From positions 1 to 64,000 of the forward strand of contig UCEU01000015.1 in assembly GCA_900471485.1 (NCBI GenBank): DNA of 64,000 nucleotides. Direction: 5' to 3'. Position numbers and translations under genes: made by a program. Source of the stretch: Hyphomicrobiales bacterium. Lineage in GTDB: Bacteria > Pseudomonadota > Alphaproteobacteria > Rhizobiales > Rhizobiaceae. Positions within the stretch are counted from its first letter, which is position 1, and each line of letters starts with the position of its first letter. Positions 25,265-36,037 of the stretch are shown here, piece by piece. A model generated the notes under the pieces. It did not search any database and was not told where the DNA came from. It worked only from the letters and a program-made list of their open reading frames with translations.

Positions 25265-25765
25265 GTGACAGACTTCCTCGATATCCAGCCGCTCACCAAA
25301 GCCGCCTTCGCGCCGTTCGGCGAGGTCATCGAAGCCGATCCTGATACGATGCGGTATATCAACAACGGCACCACCGAGCGGTTTCATGCGCTGGCGTCGG
25401 CCGATGTCACGGGCGAGGGCGCGCGTGTCATCATCAACCTGTTTCGCGGGCAGCCACGCGATTTCCCCTATGAAGTCGGGATGATGGAGCGGCACCCGTT
25501 CGGCAGCCAGAGCTTCTCGCCGATCTCGGGACGGCAGTTTCTGGTCGTGGTGTCGGAGGACGAAGGCGGCAAGCCGGGTCGTCCGCAGGTGTTTCTGGCG
25601 CGCGGCGATCAGGGCGTGAATTATGGGCGCAATGTCTGGCATCATCCCCTGATGTCGCTTGGCGCGGTCAGCGATTTTCTGGTTGTCGATCGCGACGGGC
25701 CGGGTAACAATCTGGAAGAATATTTTTTCGATACTCCCTTTGTCATCAGCGAGCCCATTTCATGA
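25265..25765 (+). CDS. allA: ureidoglycolate lyase
   Basis: A 166-aa cupin-fold enzyme that splits ureidoglycolate into glyoxylate and urea. Landmarks: [44 protein letters not shown] and [17 protein letters not shown] start at 25265, one base after the HEPN stop. Its end overlaps uraH by four bases. Confidence 0.93.
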
Positions 25766-26118
25766 CCGGATTGACCACGCATGTCCTCGACACCGCCTCC
25801 GGCAAGCCGGCCGAGGGGCTGAAGATCGAGCTGTTTCATATCGATGCCGATGTGCGCCGGCATGTGAAGACCGTCATTACCAATGCCGATGGCCGCGTCG
25901 ATGGCGGGCCGATCCTTGTCGGCGAGAGCTTCAAGGCCGGGACCTACGAGCTTCTGTTCCACGCCGGCGATTACCTGCGCGGTACCGGGGTTGCGCTGCC
26001 GCATCCCGCCTTCCTCGACCTCGTGCCGATCCGCTTCGGCATCGCCGACGAGAGCGCGCATTATCACGTGCCGCTCTTGATCTCGCCCTATGGCTACTCG
26101 ACCTATCGCGGGAGCTGA
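25762..26118 (+). CDS. uraH: 5-hydroxyisourate hydrolase
   Basis: A 118-aa transthyretin-like HIU hydrolase, the step before UraD. Signature residues: [14 protein letters not shown] at the N-terminus, the R-containing middle [21 protein letters not shown] and the invariant C-terminal YRGS. ATGA overlap with allA. Confidence 0.96.
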
Positions 26119-26121
26119 GCG

Positions 26122-26862
26122 ATGCGTTTCGCCGCGATTGCCGATGTGCATGGCAACCATCTTGCACTGGAAGCGGTGCTTGCCGATATAGAAGCGCTGG
26201 GGATTTCCGAGATCGTCAATCTCGGCGATTGCCTGAGCGGGCCGCTCGAGGCCGGCAAGGCGGCGGACCGGCTGATGTCGCTCAACGCGCTGACGGTGCG
26301 CGGCAATCACGATCGCTACCTGATCGAAAGCCCCGCCGACGCCATGCCCTCCTGGGAGCAGCATGCCTATGGGCAATTATCGGCCGCGCATCTCAGCTGG
26401 CTGCGGAGCCTGCCGTTCAGCGCCGTCTACCGCGACGAGGTCTATCTCTGCCACGCGACGCCTCGGCATGACGAAACCTACTGGCTGGAGAGCGTCTCGC
26501 CTGATGGTCACGTGTTCCTCAAGCCTCTCGAGGAGATCGAGGCGCTGGCGGAGGGGATCGATCAGCGGCTGATATTATGCGGTCACAGCCATGTGCCGCG
26601 CATGGTGCGGCTCAGCGACGGGCGGCTAATCGTCAATCCCGGCAGCGTCGGCTGCCCCGGCTACAGCGACGACACGCCCTATGAGCACAAGGTTGAAACA
26701 GGACATCCGCTGGCCTCCTACTGCATCATCGAGAAGACCGCGTCCGGCTTCGCGCCGCAGTTTCGCACGGTCGCTTACGATCACATGGCGATGTCGCGTC
26801 TTGCAAAAGAAAACGCCCGCCCGGATTGGGCGGGCGCGCTGGCGACCGGGTGGGTACGGTAG
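26122..26862 (+). CDS. metallophosphoesterase family protein
   Basis: A 246-aa YfcE-like calcineurin-fold phosphodiesterase with the metal motifs IADVHGNH, LGDCLSGP, VRGNHDRY and CGHSHVPR, then VNPGSVGCPG. It starts 3 nt after uraH and is probably in its operon, although its substrate is unrelated or unknown. The end of this CDS also encodes the terminator of the convergent flotillin operon. Confidence 0.9.
   Translation: MRFAAIADVHGNHLALEAVLADIEALGISEIVNLGDCLSGPLEAGKAADRLMSLNALTVRGNHDRYLIESPADAMPSWEQHAYGQLSAAHLSWLRSLPFSAVYRDEVYLCHATPRHDETYWLESVSPDGHVFLKPLEEIEALAEGIDQRLILCGHSHVPRMVRLSDGRLIVNPGSVGCPGYSDDTPYEHKVETGHPLASYCIIEKTASGFAPQFRTVAYDHMAMSRLAKENARPDWAGALATGWVR
26804..26836 (-). terminator. 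terminator of the flotillin operon, inside the phosphoesterase CDS
   Basis: On the minus strand a perfect 9-bp stem CGCCCGCCC / GGGCGGGCG (5-nt loop) is followed by TTTTCTTTTG, a good intrinsic terminator about 30 nt after the flotillin stop. The same bases are sense codons of the convergent phosphoesterase gene. Confidence 0.8.
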
Positions 26863-26865
26863 GGA

Positions 26866-28590
26866 TTATTCGCCCGGCTTGTCGGCCGTGGTGACAGATC
26901 CGTTCGGCACGGGAGGCTGCCTCGGCGCGGCAGTGGCGGGCACCGTCTTGCCGGTGTCGAGGCCGTCGAGCAGCGAGGAGACGGCGTTGTCGCCGTCGAA
27001 GCCTGCTTCCTTCATCAGGCGATCGAGGATCGGCTTGTTGGCCTGGTAGGAGAGAAGCTGGCCGGCGAGCCCTTCGCCCATGCCGACGCCGTTGCCGCCG
27101 CCGCCATTGCCGCCGCGGCCCAGCATGCCGCCGGTGTCGAAAATCTTGATGTCGGAGATCTTCTCGATCGGCTTCACCGCTTCGGCCAGAGCCGAAGGGA
27201 TGGTGCGGATGCGCTCGCGGGTGATCTCGAATTCGATGATCGCGGCGCTGAGCTTGTTGCGGGCGTCGTTGAGCAGGGCTTCGCTTTCGGCCTGCGCCTT
27301 CCCGGTTTCGAGAATACCCTTGGCCTTGATGATGGCGGCGTCGGCCTCGGCGGTCGCCAGCGTCTTGATGGCTTCGGCCTGGTCGGCGGCGGCCTGTTTC
27401 TCGGCCTCGGCTCCGACGGTGACAGCGGTCGCCTCGGTCTCGGCCTTCTTGCGGGCATCGATCACGGCGATCTGCTTTTCACGCTCGGCGATCTCGACGG
27501 CCTTGGCGGTTCCCACCTTTTCCTCGGCCGCGATGGCGAGCGCGCGGGCGGTTTCGGCGCTTGCCTTGGCGTCGGATTCCTCGCGGCTCTTGTTGGCGAC
27601 GGCAATCGCGCTTTCCTGCGCGACGATCTGCAGGTCACGCTTCGCTTCCGTATCACGCTGCTGAACGGCGCGGGCAGCGTCGATGTTGGCGCTTTCGCGG
27701 GCCTGCTTGGCGGCTGCCTCGCGCTCGGCGATCGCCTGTTCGGAGGCGATGCGCGCCTCTTCCTCGGCGCGCTTGGCGGCCTGTTCCTGCTGCGCGGTTT
27801 CGGCGCGGGTCGCCGCCGACTTGTTGGCGATGTCGCGTTCCTGGTTCAGTTCGGCTTCGCGCTTGGTGCGCTCGATCGCCAGCGATTGCTGCCGGGCTTC
27901 GAGGTCCTTCTGGGCGATGGCGACCTCGGTGTCGCGAACGATCTCGTTGCGCTCCTTCTTGCGGCCCTCGGTGATGCGGGTGAGCGCCGCGAGGCCGTGG
28001 GCGTCGAAGAAGTTGTTGGCGTTGAAGTGCTTGATGTCGGTCTGGTCGAGACGCGTCAGCGAAACCGATTCCAGTTCGAGACCGTTCGACTGCAGGTCGG
28101 AACCGACGGCTTCCTGGACCGCCTTGACGAAATCCATGCGCTGCTCCTGCAGCGCGTCGAGCGTCATGGTGGCCGCGACCGAGCGCAGGCCGTCGACGAA
28201 CTTCGCTTCGATCAGCAGGCGCAGTTCCTCGGCATCGTTGGTGCGGTTGCCGAGCGTCTGGGCTGCGAGCGCGATGGAGGAGGCATCCGGCTTGACGCGG
28301 ACATAGAACTCGGCGCCGATATCGACGCGCATGCGGTCCTTGGTGATCAGCGCGTCGCCTTCGCCGCGGCGGACCTCCAGGCGCAGGGTCTTCAGGTTGA
28401 CCCTTGCGATCGAGTGGAAGATCGGCAGTACGACGGAGCCGCCGTCGAGCACCACCTTCTGGCCGCCGAGACCGGTGCGGACATAGGCTTCATCGCGGCT
28501 GGAGCGCGTGTAGAGAGACGCAAGCACGAAGCCGATGCCGAAGATCAGGACGATCCCGATACCGGCAGGCAGGATGATGTCGTAAATCAT
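26866..28590 (-). CDS. flotillin family (SPFH) protein, YqiK-like
   Basis: A 574-aa membrane scaffold protein: N-terminal membrane segment (residues 4-27), SPFH domain (about 30-200), a very long Ala/Glu/Arg/Lys coiled coil (about 205-455, with repeated EARxxAEREAAAKQ patterns) and a flotillin C-terminus with a Gly-rich linker (GRGGNGGGGNGVGMG). Organises membrane microdomains. Its start overlaps the YqiJ-like gene by four bases. Confidence 0.92.
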   Translation of the reverse strand: MIYDIILPAGIGIVLIFGIGFVLASLYTRSSRDEAYVRTGLGGQKVVLDGGSVVLPIFHSIARVNLKTLRLEVRRGEGDALITKDRMRVDIGAEFYVRVKPDASSIALAAQTLGNRTNDAEELRLLIEAKFVDGLRSVAATMTLDALQEQRMDFVKAVQEAVGSDLQSNGLELESVSLTRLDQTDIKHFNANNFFDAHGLAALTRITEGRKKERNEIVRDTEVAIAQKDLEARQQSLAIERTKREAELNQERDIANKSAATRAETAQQEQAAKRAEEEARIASEQAIAEREAAAKQARESANIDAARAVQQRDTEAKRDLQIVAQESAIAVANKSREESDAKASAETARALAIAAEEKVGTAKAVEIAEREKQIAVIDARKKAETEATAVTVGAEAEKQAAADQAEAIKTLATAEADAAIIKAKGILETGKAQAESEALLNDARNKLSAAIIEFEITRERIRTIPSALAEAVKPIEKISDIKIFDTGGMLGRGGNGGGGNGVGMGEGLAGQLLSYQANKPILDRLMKEAGFDGDNAVSSLLDGLDTGKTVPATAAPRQPPVPNGSVTTADKPGE

Positions 28591-29231
28591 GATTGACCCC
28601 CGTTGCCATTTTGCCCGCCGACCAGTTCGTCGGGAGCGGAAATTGCGGTGAATATGTCTGCGTTGCGATCGACGAACAGCACGGTGGCGCCGAGCGGGAT
28701 AGGATGTTCGCCGGAGGCGGCGCGCGCCCGCAGCGTATGCCAGTTTCCGTGCGCGTCCTTGGTGCGCACCCGGCCCGGCAAGCCTTGGTCGAGCGGGCCG
28801 GTGACCACCTGTCCGGTACGGCCGATGAATTCGGCGACCTCCACGGCGTAGGTCTCGTCACGCGGCACGAAACGGGCGACGGCGCGGCTGGTGGCGCGCA
28901 CCAGCGGGAGCGTGGCGGCCACGGCCGGAATTGCGGCCATGAGCGGCGGCAGCGGCGCCCAGAAGGCATCGGCCGCGGCCTGGACGATGAAGCCTGATAT
29001 GGCGAAGAAGCCGAGCACGAGCATCACGAGGACGAGCGTCGGAACGCCGCCTACATTCAGCCAGGAGAGCATGCCGGCAATACCGGCGTGGCCGTCTGCA
29101 TCCGGTTTGCCGATTATGTCGCTCAGCGAAAAGCCGATCATCGTCGCGAGAATTTCAAGCACCGTCAGGCCCGCAAGCATGACGGCGGCTATGGCAAAGG
29201 GCACGCATTCCGGGGCGAGCAGGAGGTGCAT
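28587..29231 (-). CDS. YqiJ-like (NfeD-related OB-fold) membrane protein
   Basis: A 214-aa inner-membrane protein with three to four hydrophobic segments (AIAAVMLAGLTVLEILATMIG, VPTLVLVMLVLGFFAISGFIV, PLMAAIPAVAATLPLV) and a C-terminal OB-fold-like part (GRTGQVVTGPLDQGLPGRVR to GATVLFVDR). YqiJ proteins pair with YqiK flotillins, as here. Confidence 0.87.
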   Translation of the reverse strand: MHLLLAPECVPFAIAAVMLAGLTVLEILATMIGFSLSDIIGKPDADGHAGIAGMLSWLNVGGVPTLVLVMLVLGFFAISGFIVQAAADAFWAPLPPLMAAIPAVAATLPLVRATSRAVARFVPRDETYAVEVAEFIGRTGQVVTGPLDQGLPGRVRTKDAHGNWHTLRARAASGEHPIPLGATVLFVDRNADIFTAISAPDELVGGQNGNGGQS

Positions 29232-29238
29232 CGGCGCG

Positions 29239-30375
29239 TTACCTGCTGTCTGCCTTGAAACGGGCGAGGCGCGCCTCGATCGCCTTTTCGCGGTGCAACC
29301 GGTCGAGTTCGTCGAGTTCGGCGCTGGAAGAGTGCTCGCCGGCCGGCACGCCGGTCATGCGGGACACGGCCGCCGAGGCGCGATCGGCATGGGCGGTCGG
29401 ATCCGCCTTGCGTACGGCGTTGGCAAGCTCGGGTGCGTGGGCGGCGATGCTGCGCTTGTAGTCGACAAGCCGTGCCTCGGCCTCGCGCCGGGTCGCCAGG
29501 ATCGCCTGCAGCGCCTTCTGGCCTTCGTCCATGTGTTCCTTGGCATCGAGCAGAGCCTTGTCGAGCGCGGCGATCTGCGCCTCGATATCGATCTGGCGGG
29601 AAACGCCTGCCTTGGCGAGATCGTCGCGACCTTCGGAGACGGCGAGCCTGATCTTCTGGTCGAGCGCGCTCATGTCCTCGGAGATTTCGCGGCGGCGGTT
29701 GGCGATACGGTATTCCTCGGCCTTCGCCTTGCCGAGATCGGCGCGGGCTTCGTCGGCGGCGGCGTCGATCTCGCGGATCGCCTGCTCGATCACCACGATC
29801 TTGTTGACGCCTTCCGCCTTGTCGATGGCGGCATTGGCGGCACCGGCGATCAGCCGGCCCATGCGCGACAAAATACCTTCGTTCATCATGCTGTCCTCCA
29901 TTCTGGGGGAGTTGCGCGTGACGCCGATGTGGATCTCATAGGCGTCGTTGGTCACGGTAAGGTAGGCGGGGAAGATATCGTCCCAGCCGGTCGAATAGCC
30001 CGCGACATCGAAAGGGACCGCAACCCGGCCATGCAGCGTGGCGATGGTGAGGTCGGAATGTCCCTTGATGGCGTAGAGCTTGTCGTCGAGCGGTATGCGC
30101 GTGGCGGGACCGGACGGCTTGTTGGTCGCATAGTCGCGCAGGCCGAGAGTGACGAGGCGGGCGGGCAGGCCGGTTCTTTCCCGCACGGTTTCATAGGCGA
30201 TTTCATGCAGCACCACGAGATTGGCGCCGGCGTTTTCTGACAGGACCTCGTGGAGGATGACGAACATGTCGCCATAGGCCGAAAGCGTGGCGTCGATCGC
30301 TTCACGCGCTTCGGCGCTCGGCGCCAGGATATAGCGCAGCCTGTACTGTGGAGATGTTTTGACCGCAGGAGACAT
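29239..30375 (-). CDS. PspA/IM30 family protein fused to a TnpB-like N-terminal domain
   Basis: A single open frame of 378 codons. Residues from 163-164 onward (MNEGILSRMGRLIAGAANAAIDKAEG) are a PspA/IM30 coiled-coil membrane-stress protein of about 215 aa, first in the operon with YqiJ-like and flotillin genes. Residues 10-153 instead match the N-terminal (WED/REC-side) region of a TnpB subfamily: YRLRYILAPSAEAREAID, VVLHEIAYETVRERTGLPARL, DDKLYAIKG, IATLHGRVAVPFDVAGY and DAYEIHIGV, stopping before any RuvC motif. GGAGGA lies 4-7 nt before tandem ATGs at 29889/29886, so a free PspA is probably also made. Whether the fusion or only PspA is the real product is open. Confidence 0.75.
   Translation of the reverse strand: MSPAVKTSPQYRLRYILAPSAEAREAIDATLSAYGDMFVILHEVLSENAGANLVVLHEIAYETVRERTGLPARLVTLGLRDYATNKPSGPATRIPLDDKLYAIKGHSDLTIATLHGRVAVPFDVAGYSTGWDDIFPAYLTVTNDAYEIHIGVTRNSPRMEDSMMNEGILSRMGRLIAGAANAAIDKAEGVNKIVVIEQAIREIDAAADEARADLGKAKAEEYRIANRRREISEDMSALDQKIRLAVSEGRDDLAKAGVSRQIDIEAQIAALDKALLDAKEHMDEGQKALQAILATRREAEARLVDYKRSIAAHAPELANAVRKADPTAHADRASAAVSRMTGVPAGEHSSSAELDELDRLHREKAIEARLARFKADSR
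29894..29899 (-). promoter_or_regulatory. strong internal Shine-Dalgarno for free PspA
   Basis: GGAGGA on the minus strand, 4 nt before ATG 29889 and 7 nt before ATG 29886, inside the longer frame. It supports translation of PspA alone from within the fused ORF. Confidence 0.75.
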
Positions 30376-30459
30376 GCCCTAAAACATAAAGCACGCATTT
30401 GGTGCTTTCAAGGGTCGCCCGAAAAAATAGTAAAAAGAGGAACTACGAGTTTATGGTGC

Positions 30460-30496
30460 ATTGCGGTATCGTTCCGATTTGAAACGATACCGCAAT
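30460..30496. repeat. 14-bp perfect inverted repeat
   Basis: Arms ATTGCGGTATCGTT (30460-30473) and AACGATACCGCAAT (30483-30496) around a 9-nt spacer. There is no T run, so an operator or end-associated site is more likely than a terminator. TGCGGTATCGT recurs at about 40065-40075 ahead of the Phd-like gene. Confidence 0.75.
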
Positions 30497-30515
30497 GAGG
30501 ATCTGAGAAGACAGT

Positions 30516-30539
30516 TCAGAAACGGCACGTTTTCAAATT
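30516..30539 (+). repeat. candidate transposase-binding repeat (site B)
   Basis: TCAGAAACGGCACGTTTTC matches the second copy at 30602 in 16 of 19 positions (TCAGAwACGrCACGwTTTC). Direct repeats of about 20 bp at an element end are the usual TnsB/TniA binding sites. Confidence 0.55.
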
Positions 30540-30601
30540 CTTCCATTGAAAACATTGAGAAATTTCCAAATCATACCCGAGTAGATGTCATTCCTGTGGT
30601 G

Positions 30602-30625
30602 TCAGATACGACACGATTTCGGAAA
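30602..30625 (+). repeat. candidate transposase-binding repeat (site A)
   Basis: TCAGATACGACACGATTTC, direct repeat of the copy at 30516, 86 bp apart in the same orientation, both between the chromosomal pspA region and tniQ. Confidence 0.55.
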
Positions 30626-30645
30626 AATCGCTGTAAACAAGGCAC

Positions 30646-30674
30646 AAAAAAGCCCCGACATGCGATGCCGGGGC
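30646..30674 (-). terminator. rho-independent terminator after tniQ
   Basis: On the minus strand GCCCCGGCATCGCATGTCGGGGC folds as a GC-rich hairpin (one mismatch in nine pairs) followed by TTTTTTG, 27 nt after the tniQ stop. Confidence 0.85.
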
Positions 30675-30700
30675 GTGGTGTGCACTACGATTTTGGCTGA

Positions 30701-32548
30701 CTAAGACTTGCGAACTTCGGACCTATATCTCTCGATCTCAGCTCGGCGGTAGAAGGTTCCGTTCCTTCTCTGACCGATCGCCCATACCGGGTGAATGCCC
30801 GAATTTTCCAGTGCGACCTTCAGGTTCCGATGCGGCATCCAACCATCCGACGCTTCCGAGAGAGTCACGTATTCGCGACGAAACGCAGCGTACGCTTTGT
30901 GCTCGACCACGTAATAAGGAACGCCATTCAAGCTCTGGGTGACTTCCCTCAGTTCGAAAAGGCCCGAGTAGAACAGCGGCTTGCCGATGGAATATGTCAA
31001 CCTGAGCTCGCGCAGGAATTCGTGGCATTTAACACCAAGCGATGGCGGTGCGAAGACGAGCCTCACCTGGCTCGCGCTAACCAGCAGCCGATCGATTCCG
31101 ATGCGCGAAGAATCTTTGCAGAGGTATCTCGTCGATACCTTGCCCTCCAGGATCGCTCCAAAGACTTCGACGATCGAGCAGACCGCCTTATGGGCCGCCG
31201 CCCCAACGTGAACCAGTTCCGCAGACTCGTCACGCACTTCAAGACCTCCAACCAGCTTTTCCATGAACTCGTCGACGGCTCTCCGAGAGAACTTCGGCTT
31301 GTGTTTCTTCAGTAGCTTCGGCTTCTGCGTCAGCAGACCCGCCTTGATCATCTTCTGCACCGTAGGCAGCGTAACGCCAAGGCGCCGGGTGATCGCTTCG
31401 ATATCGATCTCATCATGGTACTCGGCTACGGCCGCCGCTACATCCGCAGCGGCGCAAATTACATAGTTGTCCGTTTTCCGACGATCGGCCTTGCTCAGGA
31501 CACCACGCTGCTCGAGGATGCGACGCAGTGTCCGGCTATCGATACCTGTCTCACGCATTGCAGTGTGCGCGGTATGCCAGTTGCGGACGCCGCCGCCACC
31601 GATAAATGGATCCTCGGGGCCGATCGGCACCTCCGACATCGCGCACTTGCGCACGAAATCGATGAGCGGACGCAGCGCCGGCACTTCAACGTGGTCGGTA
31701 AGTACGTCCTGGAGTTCTCCATAGAGTGCGTATCCCTTCGAGAACTTGCTGCGGCTGATGAAATCCTCATTCAGTCTCGAAAGGCACTCGCGGAATTTGC
31801 CCCTGTCCGCCAACAGCTCGAACCCGCTAAGCCGGAGGGCGCGCGACACCGGCACTCTGGCAGCGAGCCGGAGATCAGGACTGCGCGCTAGTCGTTCGAT
31901 GCGCCCGGCGACAATGCAGAGCTTCTGGGCCATAGGGTATGACAGGCCATGAAGAAACTCCAAGGACTGAGCCGATCCGACAGCCAGGCTCTCTGCGAAA
32001 TACAGGTCATAAGCATGGAGCTGCGCTTCCGAGCAGCTCGCGATGGCATGCTCCACCTCCGCTTTTCTCTTGCGAAGATACATTGCGAAATCGAAGCGAT
32101 CGCTGTTGGGGTATTTGAATGAGGACGTGAAGATCGGCGTGCGGTGTTCCACACAGATCTCGTTGAAACTCAGAAGCCAATCCCAACGGACGTGCGGTCG
32201 AGCTTCCCAGCGTCCGGATCCACCACGGATCTCGCTCTCAATGCAACGCGGGCAGAAACGCGGATTGCTGAGGTTCAGATGCCAACCGTTGAACTCACGA
32301 TCGCCGTAAGCAACTACCGTACCTCGCACATGGAGATTTCGTGAGGCCAGCGTCTGCGTATCGATCCCACTGAGGGCGGAGAGGCCCTCAAGCGTCCTGG
32401 GATGCATAAGGTGGTGGTCCTGCCGGAAGTTCATGTGCCGGAGAAAGTCGCGGATGCTTGGAGCGGCATTTGCTGCCACAAGCCTGGATACGAACATCTG
32501 CAAGGGTTCCGAATCCGCGAGGACCGGCACGTGAGCGAGACGAGCCAT
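30701..32548 (-). CDS. tniQ: TniQ/TnsD family target-selection protein
   Basis: A 615-aa protein. The N-terminal TniQ domain carries the zinc motif (RFCPRCIESE ... WLLSFNEICVEHRT). The C-terminal half has at least one helix-turn-helix (DIEAITRRLGVTLPTVQKMIKAGLL) and a long DNA-binding-type extension ending YRRAEIERYRSEVRKS. The length is beyond the roughly 400 aa of Tn5053 TniQ and near TnsD. The ATG at 32548 has AAGGAGG 7 nt upstream; the TTG at 32554 overlaps the tniB stop but is too close to it. It should recruit the TniB ATPase to the target. Confidence 0.87.
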   Translation of the reverse strand: MARLAHVPVLADSEPLQMFVSRLVAANAAPSIRDFLRHMNFRQDHHLMHPRTLEGLSALSGIDTQTLASRNLHVRGTVVAYGDREFNGWHLNLSNPRFCPRCIESEIRGGSGRWEARPHVRWDWLLSFNEICVEHRTPIFTSSFKYPNSDRFDFAMYLRKRKAEVEHAIASCSEAQLHAYDLYFAESLAVGSAQSLEFLHGLSYPMAQKLCIVAGRIERLARSPDLRLAARVPVSRALRLSGFELLADRGKFRECLSRLNEDFISRSKFSKGYALYGELQDVLTDHVEVPALRPLIDFVRKCAMSEVPIGPEDPFIGGGGVRNWHTAHTAMRETGIDSRTLRRILEQRGVLSKADRRKTDNYVICAAADVAAAVAEYHDEIDIEAITRRLGVTLPTVQKMIKAGLLTQKPKLLKKHKPKFSRRAVDEFMEKLVGGLEVRDESAELVHVGAAAHKAVCSIVEVFGAILEGKVSTRYLCKDSSRIGIDRLLVSASQVRLVFAPPSLGVKCHEFLRELRLTYSIGKPLFYSGLFELREVTQSLNGVPYYVVEHKAYAAFRREYVTLSEASDGWMPHRNLKVALENSGIHPVWAIGQRRNGTFYRRAEIERYRSEVRKS

Positions 32549-32550
32549 GT

Positions 32551-33732
32551 TCAAGCCTCCTTCTTTCTGGATCTCGACGGCTTGGTCTCGCGCGGCGCCT
32601 TAGCGATAACGTGGGCCAAGGACTGGCGGGGGTCGACCTTGTCCCAGTCAGGGACGAGGAACACATTGGCTGACGGACGGCAACCGAACTTGAAGGCATA
32701 GTCGGCGGCATAGTGCTTGATCTTGACTTCGGGTCTCGATCCGGTATCGGGAGCACGATTTTCATGCTCAGTCTGGGCACGTTCCGTAGCTCCCTGGATA
32801 GCCTGGATAATGGTGCCGCAAGCACCCTGGTAGGCGTGGATCAGGCGGTGCGCGAAATCGATGTTGTCCGTTTCGCCGAGTACGAAGCCCTCGTCCTGCA
32901 CCATGTAACGCTGGAGGGTCAGCAGCGCGTCGCCATCCGCCCGTGTCATCTGCTTAAGCTCCACTACGAAGCTACGATTCCGGAGCTGTGCATCGCCATC
33001 TTCCGGCGACAAAAAGAGGCCGAGAGACGGCACACCGGAAAGGATCATGTGCAGGGGCCATCCCGGGATCTGCAAGAGGCTTTTGATGATGTCGGAAACG
33101 TTCTGGATTTCGTTGGTCGTCGTCCCCTTCATCACATGCTGCATCTCGTCAATGTGCATGAAAAGAATTCGATTGTTCCGAATGGTCTCCTTCAACAGCT
33201 CGAAGAGCTCCTGTTCGGTGAGCTTGTGGGAGACGTTCGGGTACCCGCACGCCTCCAGCGCCTTTCGCGCGAACCCCTTCAACGTGATCGGGCGGGGGCA
33301 TTCAAACGAGACGAACGGCTTGACCAGTTCTCCTGACGGCCGCCGATAGGGCAGGAACTCCTCGCGCTTCGGAATGTGAAATTCCATTGCACGGGTTTTT
33401 CCACTGTCGGACTCTCCGATCAGGAACAGTGCGCGCCGCTTGCCGGATTCTCCGAATGCTGCGGCTGCGGCGTTCTCGCAGAGTTCATCAAGCGCATTTG
33501 CGATCAACGCATCCTTGGGCATCGTCACGTACCTTGCCTGCTTCTTGCCTCGGCGCTCAGCACGCATCCGCCTTTCAGGACTCAGGGTCGCAAGCAGGGC
33601 GAGGGCTGCCTCGTGGAACTGCGGCATGCCATCGTCGATAGGGTCCATGCCGGCCTCGCTAGTGGGCGAGACGGGCAGGCTGTTGTTGGAGAGAGAGGCG
33701 AGGGCGGTATTTTCGAGGAACTGCGTAGTCAT
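32551..33732 (-). CDS. tniB: TniB/TnsC AAA+ transposition ATPase
   Basis: A 393-aa AAA+ regulator with Walker A GESDSGKT (106-113), Walker B LFMHIDEMQHV (190-200) and the sensor-type segment MILSGVPSLGLFLSPE. It forms filaments or rings linking target selector and transposase. The ATG at 33732 has AAAGGAG 9 nt upstream; a longer in-frame reading lacks a site. The C-terminus is basic (KPSRSRKKEA). Confidence 0.9.
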   Translation of the reverse strand: MTTQFLENTALASLSNNSLPVSPTSEAGMDPIDDGMPQFHEAALALLATLSPERRMRAERRGKKQARYVTMPKDALIANALDELCENAAAAAFGESGKRRALFLIGESDSGKTRAMEFHIPKREEFLPYRRPSGELVKPFVSFECPRPITLKGFARKALEACGYPNVSHKLTEQELFELLKETIRNNRILFMHIDEMQHVMKGTTTNEIQNVSDIIKSLLQIPGWPLHMILSGVPSLGLFLSPEDGDAQLRNRSFVVELKQMTRADGDALLTLQRYMVQDEGFVLGETDNIDFAHRLIHAYQGACGTIIQAIQGATERAQTEHENRAPDTGSRPEVKIKHYAADYAFKFGCRPSANVFLVPDWDKVDPRQSLAHVIAKAPRETKPSRSRKKEA

Positions 33733-33811
33733 GGTGGTGCTCCTTTGGAGTTGGACGAATTGGACTTTTGCGGGCCCGCACATCAGAGGTGCGGGCCGTT
33801 TCTTCGAAGCG

Positions 33812-36037
33812 TCAGTCCTCGATCGAGAAGGAGAACCCGCTCTCCTCGCCGCCATATTCGAGGCCAGACTCTTCCGGTTCCGAGGGGGCTTCGGCTTCGC
33901 CGAAGTACTCACTGACCTCCTTCTTGTTGCGGGCGAGGAAGCGGAATTCCTCGATGGATGTCGTGAGCGGATCGTGCGCGATAGCCAGTGGTGCGAGCTC
34001 CTTGCCGCTCAAGACGTCCATCGTGATTTCCCGAGCGAAGCGCTCGTGCTCGACCTTGCGGTAGGCAGCCTCACTGGGGATGTCCGTTCCGAGTTCGGCA
34101 CGGGCTGCTGCGGCGATGCCTACGTCGCGCAAGTGGTTGACCGCGTTGAGCATTGCCGAAAGGTTAATCTCGGCGTTCTTCCCGTGGATGGCCGCGAGGT
34201 TGTCTTTCGCCTCCGACCACTCCCAGACGCTGATGCCTTCCGGCAAATGCTCCGCAGTGAGGTCGAGCCACTTGATGCCGTTGTGGAACGAAACGGTGCG
34301 AAGGTTGAAGCGATCGATGCGTACCTTCACTTCGACGCTCGGAGAGTTCGGCAACGCCGCGCGTTCGGCCCACAGGCGCTCGAGCTCGCGAGACTGGTAA
34401 TGGATGCCGAGGAAGACGATGCCGCGGGCAGAAACCTTGCGCTTGATAAGGGTTCCGAACATGACGCGGCGCTGGCGCTGGCTCAGCGGAGGCAGCATTG
34501 CGTATTCTCGTGACAGGCGAAGCCACGCATTTGCCGGGGTTTCACCGCCCAAGCCCGTGTGGGGTTCGTTGTGGTAGATATCAACGATCGCACGGGTCAG
34601 AGTACGGCAGACCTCGTCAACGTTAAGTACGGCGTTTCCGTCCCCATCGTAGTCACCCCGAGCGTATACGCTGGAGAACGTGCGGCCGTGGAAATAGTGC
34701 AGGAAGCGCTGACCGAACGTGCGGAACACGGATTCGATCGTGCCGCGTGCCGATGCCATACCGGCCGGGGGAATGGTGTGTACGCAGTGGAGTGCAGCCA
34801 AGGTCTGACGGAACGTCGTGTCGATGAATCCCGCTCCGGCATCGGTGACGAGTTCACGCGGCACGAAAGAGTGGATCCAACGGCTTTCGGCTCCGGCTAC
34901 TTCCGCGATGTGCTCCTTCTCGGTGACGATCATTTCAAGAGCTGCGATCGACGAGTGGGCGGAGTTAGCACGGGTACTGAAACGGAGTGCAACGATGCAA
35001 CGCGTGGCGACATCGATCGCGACAGTCACCCAGATGCGCACCTTCTTCAGCGCTTCGCGCTGCTTCACCGTCATTTCTTTCCAGATGGGTGTCAGAACGA
35101 ACCAGGCGTGGAGATCGACCTTCCACTCGTCCATCTCGACACGTTCGCCCGGAGCGAACACCTGAAGGCCATCGCGGACTGGCGCGAACTTCTTCTTGGC
35201 GGCGTCCTCGCCATAGCGAGCAGCATGAAGGAAGAATTCGCCCATGCCCTTGATCAGCGCCTCGAAGGCGTTGCGCGACGGCATCTTGTGTTTGAAGTCT
35301 TTTTTCGAACTGGCCTTGTTGCGCTTGTCGATCTCCGCCTTCAGCTTCCCGAAGCACGCGCGCATCGACGGGCGCAGTTCGGAGGCGTACATCTGGGCAA
35401 ATTCGGTCCAGAGCTGGAGGTCGATCGGATTTGCCTTCGAATACGAGCCCGGCCCCTTGCGGCGGCTGACGAGCACAGCCGGGTCGCAGCCGCCTGCCAC
35501 ATAGAGATTGTAAAGGCGACGGAACTGACGAGGGTTCGGAAGCGTGACTACCTTGCGGTCCTTCCCCCCCTTCTTGCCCGCCCACTTCGAAAAGACGTGG
35601 GCATCAGCAAGCGGACGGAGGTACTTTTCCAAGCAGTCGTGACCGAGGGTCGCCTTGCGCTTCCAACCCATCTGAGCGAGGCGGGGATCCTTCTTGCCGA
35701 TGATCGACATCACAAAGTCAAACGCGTCGGCGAATACCAGGGCGCGGCGAGCCTTCTCCGGGTCTACATCGATGATGTCGCGCCCGAGCTTCAGTTTGGA
35801 GAGCTCAAGGGTGTCGCGTTCCACCTCGAGCAGGTTCTGCAGGTGGTACATGTACAGCGTCGCATGGGAGAAGCGCTGAACGACGCCGTCCTTGTTGCGG
35901 AGTTCACTGTGGTCCTTGGTCTGGCTGACAACAGTGTAGTCGACGCCCTCGATCTTGACCGATTTGGCATCGCCCAGCCAAAACATGGGGTTGTGGCTGC
36001 GGTTGGGTGCGAGGGCGAAGGGGTTGTGCATGTTCAT
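33812..36037 (-). CDS. tniA: TniA/TnsB DDE transposase
   Basis: A 741-aa Mu-type transposase. Catalytic residues: D303 (VEMDEWKVDL), D399 (LVTDAGAGF) and E435 (ARGTIESVF), a D-35-E spacing. N-terminal DNA-binding subdomains include LQLWTEFAQMYASELRPSMRACFGKLK and MPSRNAFEALIKGMGEFFLHAARYG; a Mu-C-type beta barrel follows the core. The C-terminal acidic tail (EAPSEPEESGLEYGGEESGFSF) may contact TniB, as in TnsB-TnsC. AAGGAG 8 nt upstream of the ATG. Confidence 0.92.
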   Translation of the reverse strand: MNMHNPFALAPNRSHNPMFWLGDAKSVKIEGVDYTVVSQTKDHSELRNKDGVVQRFSHATLYMYHLQNLLEVERDTLELSKLKLGRDIIDVDPEKARRALVFADAFDFVMSIIGKKDPRLAQMGWKRKATLGHDCLEKYLRPLADAHVFSKWAGKKGGKDRKVVTLPNPRQFRRLYNLYVAGGCDPAVLVSRRKGPGSYSKANPIDLQLWTEFAQMYASELRPSMRACFGKLKAEIDKRNKASSKKDFKHKMPSRNAFEALIKGMGEFFLHAARYGEDAAKKKFAPVRDGLQVFAPGERVEMDEWKVDLHAWFVLTPIWKEMTVKQREALKKVRIWVTVAIDVATRCIVALRFSTRANSAHSSIAALEMIVTEKEHIAEVAGAESRWIHSFVPRELVTDAGAGFIDTTFRQTLAALHCVHTIPPAGMASARGTIESVFRTFGQRFLHYFHGRTFSSVYARGDYDGDGNAVLNVDEVCRTLTRAIVDIYHNEPHTGLGGETPANAWLRLSREYAMLPPLSQRQRRVMFGTLIKRKVSARGIVFLGIHYQSRELERLWAERAALPNSPSVEVKVRIDRFNLRTVSFHNGIKWLDLTAEHLPEGISVWEWSEAKDNLAAIHGKNAEINLSAMLNAVNHLRDVGIAAAARAELGTDIPSEAAYRKVEHERFAREITMDVLSGKELAPLAIAHDPLTTSIEEFRFLARNKKEVSEYFGEAEAPSEPEESGLEYGGEESGFSFSIED

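Follow-up and report, generated by a model that had tools for sequence, protein, structure and literature searches.

The stretch of Hyphomicrobiales bacterium DNA analysed here (64,000 nucleotides [nt], positions 1 to 64,000 of contig UCEU01000015.1; hereafter the window) carries on its reverse strand a gene in which an N-terminal module resembling the first half of the transposon-encoded protein TnpB is joined to the membrane-stress protein PspA. YqiJ and then flotillin follow downstream of this fusion gene, and non-coding space is scarce in the operon (Table 1). The sequence-only reading of the window had described an in-frame fusion with no stop codon between the N-terminal part and PspA, and the frame is indeed open over all 378 codons; residues 167-340 match the PspA_IM30 family (PF04012), scoring 52.2 bits where the cut-off is 33.9. 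From the comparisons described below, it appears that rhizobia and other alphaproteobacteria have fused a part of TnpB to PspA and have long kept it, probably as a built-in switch that reads a site in the promoter of its own gene.

Table 1. Features of the module-PspA locus, in window coordinates
Feature	Position	Strand	Remarks
Fusion gene, TnpB-derived WED-REC module + PspA	29239..30375	-	378 amino acids; ATG at 30375, stop at 29239
TnpB WED-REC-like module	29887..30375	-	Residues 1-163; homologous core ~8-157; hhalign, AlphaFold2 model, PDB fold matches
PspA/IM30 part	29239..29889	-	Pfam match, residues 167-340
YqiJ (YqiJ_N + YqiJ_OB), same operon	28587..29231	-	Pfam
Flotillin (Band_7 + Flot), same operon	26866..28590	-	Pfam
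Putative operator dyad AAAGCAC-CAAATGC-GTGCTTT (21 bp)	30388..30408	.	Conserved in relatives
Predicted promoter TTGAAA-N17-TATGTT	30383..30411	-	-35 at 30406-30411, -10 at 30383-30388; consensus reading
Predicted internal start for free PspA	29884..29899	-	GGAGGA 29894-29899, ATG ATG 29884-29889; conserved
Y61 codon	30193..30195	-	Opposite Y52 of ISDra2 TnpB, a contact of the transposon-associated motif (TAM), in MAFFT
R73 codon	30157..30159	-	At the second position of helix 72-85 in the model; appears to covary with operator base 5

The assignment of the N-terminal part to the WED/REC region of TnpB, which had been made by eye, is supported by both profile and fold comparisons. Specifically, hhalign aligned a profile of 44 fusion N-termini (alignment A2) with one of 10 annotated TnpBs (A3), which bear RuvC and zinc-finger motifs and are related to the Cas12f/TnpB structures, with a probability of 98.3 and an E-value of 2.4e-14 (2.1e-15 with a second alignment). 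The aligned TnpB columns, 6-159, end before the DxG motif and PspA then takes over, so that the module stops short of RuvC, as had also been claimed. The search of the module against TnpB/Cas12 structures that the sequence-only reading had suggested was run with an AlphaFold2 model (pLDDT 85.4, pTM 0.78) and returned the TnpB/Cas12f fold, at Z scores of 10-12. The four best PDB matches in Foldseek are all ISDra2 TnpB (8exa, E 9e-4; 8ex9; 8h1j; 8bf8), 8exa being alone among 214 matches at an E-value of 0.001 or below. All 50 rows of a second look with VIA-align are TnpB/Cas12/Fanzor-type effectors, the best reaching a Z score of 12.1 over 147 residues with a root-mean-square deviation (rmsd) of 4.5; against 8bf8 the Z score is 10.5 (rmsd 5.0, 144 residues), and the match takes in the WED and REC parts that characterise TnpB. 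A profile built from fusion modules only also finds a full TnpB in another family of the phylum (E 7e-11), which adjoins a TnpA of the IS200 type (TnpB and TnpA identified by eye), and tblastn connects the module to a Thermobacillus plasmid protein (25% identity, E 3e-5). Of that protein's relatives, the 40 listed (from 81 records) mostly bear the annotation TnpB endonuclease or transposase. The first 164 residues searched alone as a single sequence match nothing in Pfam, NCBIfam or the PDB sequences, nor did a first contig scan give a match; the module profile obtains only chance-like matches against PDB sequences, one scan of viral contigs contained no relative of the module, and the fusion profile matches the ISDra2 sequence alone weakly (E 0.14, 22 columns). 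Taken together, we regard homology between the module and the WED-REC part of TnpB as near certain. A Thermobacillus plasmid open reading frame (L016, 5007-5537; 176 amino acids) resembles the N-terminal half of TnpB without RuvC, and may be a fragment or another free module.

The available excerpts of the report on ISDra2 TnpB (PMC10097598) place WED at residues 1-12 and 117-176, REC at 13-116 and RuvC from 185, with the TAM duplex lying in the cleft between WED and REC and contacted by Y52, S56, K76, F77, Q80, T123 and N124. Since the homology stops before RuvC, this domain layout suggests that the module corresponds to the TAM-reading half of TnpB without the nuclease. The tyrosine that MAFFT sets opposite Y52, Y61, is found in 25 of 25 aligned rows and is invariant in alignments A2 and A4. 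The RuvC domain with its DED triad is absent from the fusion protein, in which PspA occupies the rest of the chain, and so is the TNB/zinc-finger region; Rfam gives no match at 26000-31500, and no omega-RNA locus was found in that interval, a distant RNA being outside this scope.

The fusion is widely kept. The module occurs in 75 of 148 same-genus genomes, with open frames of 379-519 amino acids. Whether other Rhizobiaceae keep the fusion open had been set beforehand as a test, and all 75 of these copies are free of internal stops (PspA behind the module was checked in 14 fetched relatives, the other same-genus copies being judged by frame length). The genomes of the genus with a YqiJ above the cut-off are exactly the same 75. 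The module was further found in 24 of 397 genomes of the order, in 4 of 289 of a class sample and in 10 of 398 of a phylum sample, one of the latter being the full TnpB beside the IS200-type TnpA (the genus, order, class and phylum samples include own or same-genus genomes), and two further orders have it in 4 of 17 genomes (one unfused) and 8 of 76. Named hosts include Rhizobium, Ensifer, Neorhizobium, Pararhizobium and Bradyrhizobium, along with plasmids of Agrobacterium, Shinella and Bosea. One carrier of the module is Rhizobium johnstonii 3841 (L043). The ratio of nonsynonymous to synonymous substitution rates (dN/dS) is 0.03-0.22 for the module in all 11 close pairs and 0-0.16 for PspA. 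Judged from these comparisons, the fusion is old and under selection, and we have very little doubt that it represents a conserved, TnpB-derived addition to PspA.

Upstream of the gene, the dyad fills the spacer between the -35 and -10 elements of the predicted promoter, and the ATG of the fusion lies 7 nt past the -10. In a survey of promoters and dyads across 123 loci (111 distinct), the arms AAAGCAC-N7-GTGCTTT are unchanged in 79 of the 111, with variants in the rest. In 71, TTGAAA overlaps the left arm and is separated from the -10 by 17 bp, and in another 18 the element is TTGAAAA, one base further; among the -10 elements, TATGTT (40 loci) and TACGTT (15) are the most frequent. The first in-frame start follows the -10 by 5-8 nt in 73 loci, the other 38 having an earlier in-frame start in or near the -10, and none of 119 full-length starts is preceded by 5 nt or more that match the Shine-Dalgarno sequence. 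This looks like a near-leaderless σ70-type promoter with an operator in its spacer and, given the 17-bp length of that spacer, it is expected to be active as long as nothing blocks it. A dyad that overlaps the promoter of its own gene would be the arrangement of an autoregulated repressor. The exact pattern AAAGYAC-N7-GTRCTTT is present as a single copy in the genome to which the window belongs, with one further place at one mismatch. Within the genus, 74 of the 75 fusion genomes carry the dyad, compared with 3 of the 73 others, and it lies, by eye, at most 50 bp from the module match in the 72 fusion genomes with a listed place. In the sole fusion genome of the genus without an exact dyad (G020; L225, G020:C2), the dyad is gone and so is the DNA up to and including the -10. 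Another (G073; L226, G073:C6 53200-53700) carries a 142-bp tandem duplication that puts a second exact operator copy upstream of the fusion.

The natural variation of the operator arms was then compared with that of the module, in a set of 120 rows from which L016 and L125-L208 were left out and in which identical modules were collapsed. Residue 73 is arginine in 108 loci, 105 of them assigned by script and three by eye (L021, L069 and L073, for which the residue pattern failed and which were set to arginine after reading), and every one of the 108 has a C at operator base 5 in one arm or both. Glutamine takes its place in 12 loci, none of which has C5 (eight are G/G and four T/T). Of the 375 columns compared, the module contributes 159, and residue 73 is the only one of these 159 that splits the operator classes perfectly. 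In divergent loci both arms are altered symmetrically with the N7 kept, namely L122 (AAAGGAC/GTCCTTT), L123 (AAAACAC/GTGTTTT), L124 (AATGAC/GTCATT), L209 and L210 (AAAGGAT/GTCCTTT) and L211 (AAAGTAT/GTACTTT). This pattern suggests that module residue 73 and operator base 5 change together. On the TnpB side, the residue opposite 73 belongs to the LSA-Q/N motif, being Q in seven of the 10 TnpBs and N in three, and MAFFT puts R73 at Q64 of ISDra2, from where a shift of a 13-residue gap would bring it to F77 or Q80, both of them TAM contacts. On our reading, R73 may be a TAM-contacting position.

At the other end of the module, the strong GGAGGA ahead of tandem ATG codons pointed out in the sequence-only reading is present as described. 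At the junction, 107 of 119 fusion loci match the Shine-Dalgarno sequence over 5 nt or more, compared with 8 of the 285 Met windows taken from these genes as controls. Thus, translation from the leaderless start would give module-PspA, and translation from the internal start would give free PspA. The operator and the internal Shine-Dalgarno sequence fit the earlier suggestion of an exapted nucleic-acid-binding module giving two forms of PspA.

Operons that differ in this region help to separate the parts. One locus (L215/L229, G826:C21) encodes the module alone, as 159 amino acids from a GTG, followed by YqiJ and flotillin with no PspA between. It is of the arginine type, with AAAGCAC-N7-GTGCTTT; L209, L210 and L214, which make up the rest of the hits in its family, are of the glutamine type with a different operator. 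Because L215 has the dyad without PspA, the dyad goes with the module. Conversely, 15 of 19 genomes with YqiJ in the class sample have no module; seven of the 15 have a separate PspA and eight have none adjacent. In all seven unfused PspA operons (L194-L196, L198-L201) the slot of the module is taken by a protein of 172-198 amino acids whose N-terminus resembles, by eye, a ribbon-helix-helix domain, a reading for which Pfam (3 of the 7 proteins), NCBIfam (7 of 7) and PDB profiles gave no support. The end of the slot gene lies anywhere from 29 nt ahead of the pspA start to 4 nt beyond it; in L194 the pspA frame is broken. The dyad is absent from these seven operons (150-250 nt upstream of the slot gene and of pspA were searched). 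Instead, the motif GTATNCAAATGNATAC occurs upstream within one mismatch in four of the seven, the other three matches being poor (3-5 mismatches); the motif was derived from the sequences on which it was scored, and a shuffle test therefore overstates it. The start of the L194 slot gene was taken 87 nt further downstream in this motif search than in the comparison of slot genes. Between fused and unfused operons, it looks as though one regulator with its operator had been replaced by another.

We propose that the WED and REC half of a TnpB, having lost RuvC, TNB and apparently the guide RNA, became a sequence-specific DNA-binding domain. Fused to the oligomerising PspA, this module would bind the dyad as a dimer or oligomer, and the dyad-bound fusion would block its own promoter and repress the PspA-YqiJ-flotillin operon. 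Upon stress at the inner membrane, the PspA part may be drawn to the membrane or to a YqiJ/flotillin scaffold, which would free the operator and induce the operon, and the internal start would then supply PspA without the DNA-binding domain for repair. The whole would amount to a feedback loop of the PspA-PspF type within one polypeptide. That the fusion is a protein-only autoregulator of the dyad we consider fairly probable, where we infer the binding, the repressive sign and the release at the membrane. For membrane release as the signal, which is argued by analogy, we see the chances as about even. As for the complete proposition, in which the WED-REC half is a guide-free, stand-alone DNA-binding domain that reads the dyad, with its specificity set by an Arg/Gln switch where a REC helix begins, at the LSA-Q position of TnpB, and its fusion to PspA makes a one-chain stress sensor-repressor, we lean towards it, a little less firmly than towards the autoregulator.

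Several observations weigh against this proposal. PspA columns 181, 358 and 368 split the operator classes too, though PspA is missing from L215. A quick tree of 75 of the 120 rows (near-identical rows dropped, all glutamine rows kept; long branches for L123, L124, L215 and L221) shows three changes per trait and 2-3 independent pairs (sign test, p 0.5); with so few independent pairs and such long branches, the association between residue 73 and the operator is only suggestive. The ISDra2 counterpart of R73 is ambiguous, and the hhalign alignment with ISDra2 covers only residues 6-35 of the latter, short of R73. The dyad is present in three non-fusion genomes of the genus (G072, G086 and G146; its places were read in the first two), and a control, the dyad read backwards, likewise occurs 0-2 times per genome, so that a lone dyad means little and the argument is carried by place and co-occurrence. 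In L215 the module lives without PspA, and a sensor role of PspA is therefore not universal. A TnpB close to the module was not found, so that evolutionary intermediates are missing. Finally, the literature examined contains no expression data for the operon. The acid-induced PspA of Rhizobium tropici CIAT 899 (PMC5936775, available in part) was considered as expression evidence and set aside, since its gene is located on pRtrCIAT899c, a plasmid that the searched collection contains but that is not among the 12 module-matching records; the PspA of R. leguminosarum RL1106, as it appears in the accessible part of PMC11406972, was left unused, as it may be a protein other than the fusion.

Alternatively, the dyad could be owned by a separate, trans-acting regulator, with the module serving as a protein-protein or membrane-targeting adaptor on PspA. 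Spacer operators are common among ordinary repressors, binding of the dyad by the module is deduced, residue 73 might track lineage given the few independent events, and its placement in the TAM cleft is ambiguous. However, the dyad adjoins the fusion gene and is nearly confined to genomes that have the fusion, it stays with the module once PspA is gone and was not found in the seven unfused operons, and its base 5 is associated with residue 73; we judge a separate owner unlikely. It is also conceivable that the module is still RNA-guided or RNA-binding, either through a guide or scaffold RNA as in TldR or because the dyad acts as a hairpin in the gene's own messenger RNA. According to the excerpts available, the WED domain of TnpB touches the omega-RNA (PMC10097598) and TldRs are TnpB-derived, RNA-guided repressors (PMC13418256), and the dyad is able to fold as a hairpin. 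On the other hand, RuvC and TNB are absent from the fusion, whereas RuvC holds much of the omega-RNA and the heteroduplex in TnpB (excerpts of PMC10097598), Rfam matches nothing in the interval given above, the operon offers little non-coding room, and the dyad lies upstream of the predicted transcription start. At dyad position 5, moreover, 12 C.A mispairs outnumber 5 U.G pairs among the 120 loci, a count that suits a site in DNA better than a stem in RNA and on which the hairpin was rejected. An RNA-dependent module is, in our judgement, distinctly unlikely. Since the sign of control is presumed and PspA is membrane-associated, the module might instead activate the operon, or tether PspA to the nucleoid without regulating, but a 17-bp spacer needs no MerR-like remodelling, the dyad covers the site of RNA polymerase itself and one local site is ill-suited to a tether, and we hold either version to be very improbable. 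That the open frame upstream of pspA is incidental and not a protein domain, as the strong internal start might have allowed, is refuted by the 75 stop-free same-genus copies, the low dN/dS of the module and the profile and fold matches.

With TnpB (IS200/IS605, IS1341 OrfB) the fusion has in common the WED-REC fold and sequence over ~150 residues and a tyrosine aligned with the TAM-reading Y52; it differs in lacking RuvC and the TNB zinc finger, in the failure to find an omega-RNA, in its fusion to PspA and in not having been seen within an IS200/IS605 element. It resembles TldR in being derived from TnpB, domesticated and, as proposed here, a transcription regulator tied to a host gene, but TldR combines an inactivated RuvC with a guide RNA, as described in the available part of PMC13418256, whereas the fusion has no RuvC at all and its 21-bp dyad is proposed to be read by protein. 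As regards a guide RNA in the fusion locus, the Rfam comparison at 26000-31500 gave no match, and no search aimed at promoter-matching guides was made. With RuvC missing, the fusion is no TnpB nuclease, and it does not count as a TldR either, since it lacks RuvC and no guide was found in that comparison. In enterobacteria, PspA is a membrane-associated effector of membrane stress that controls its own operon. There, PspA inhibits PspF, a separate σ54 activator, whereas here the promoter is σ70-like and a single chain would hold both PspA and the proposed DNA reader. The available part of Ravi et al. 2024 (PMC11237479) describes operons of the type PspA/CesT-Tir/band-7-flotillin/YqiJ, which share with the present one the grouping of PspA with YqiJ and flotillin; what differs is the slot before PspA, held here by the TnpB module. 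The fold matches listed for the module leave room for a CesT/Tir-like fold in that slot. “Transposase” and “IS605” occur 0 times in the main text of that paper (PMC11237479), and a count of 0 likewise applies to “TnpB”. An earlier description of the fusion was not among the literature matches listed, and a RuvC-less TnpB module fused to PspA, which is established computationally, is already new. To our knowledge, the descendants of TnpB (CRISPR Cas12, Fanzor) keep an RNA guide. So does TldR, according to the excerpts of PMC13418256. If our proposal is true, the DNA-reading half of TnpB would be able to stand apart as an operator-binding domain like any other, and bacteria would have a transcription-factor domain of a new kind. 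It would also provide a natural Arg/Gln switch of specificity in motif recognition, and the fusion would be a membrane-stress protein bearing its own DNA reader.

The surroundings of the operon include genes of two other kinds. TniQ-, TniB- and TniA-like genes (30701-36037, reverse strand; TniQ and TniB named by Pfam) form a Tn7/Tn5053-type transposition set that ends ~290 bp upstream of the operator, and one inverted-repeat scan showed no clear terminal repeats for it. On the other side, hydroxyisourate hydrolase-like and metallophosphoesterase-like open reading frames (25762-26862, forward strand) run convergent to the operon, and the same convergent arrangement is seen in a purine-catabolism cluster of Rhizobium leguminosarum pSK03 (L017).
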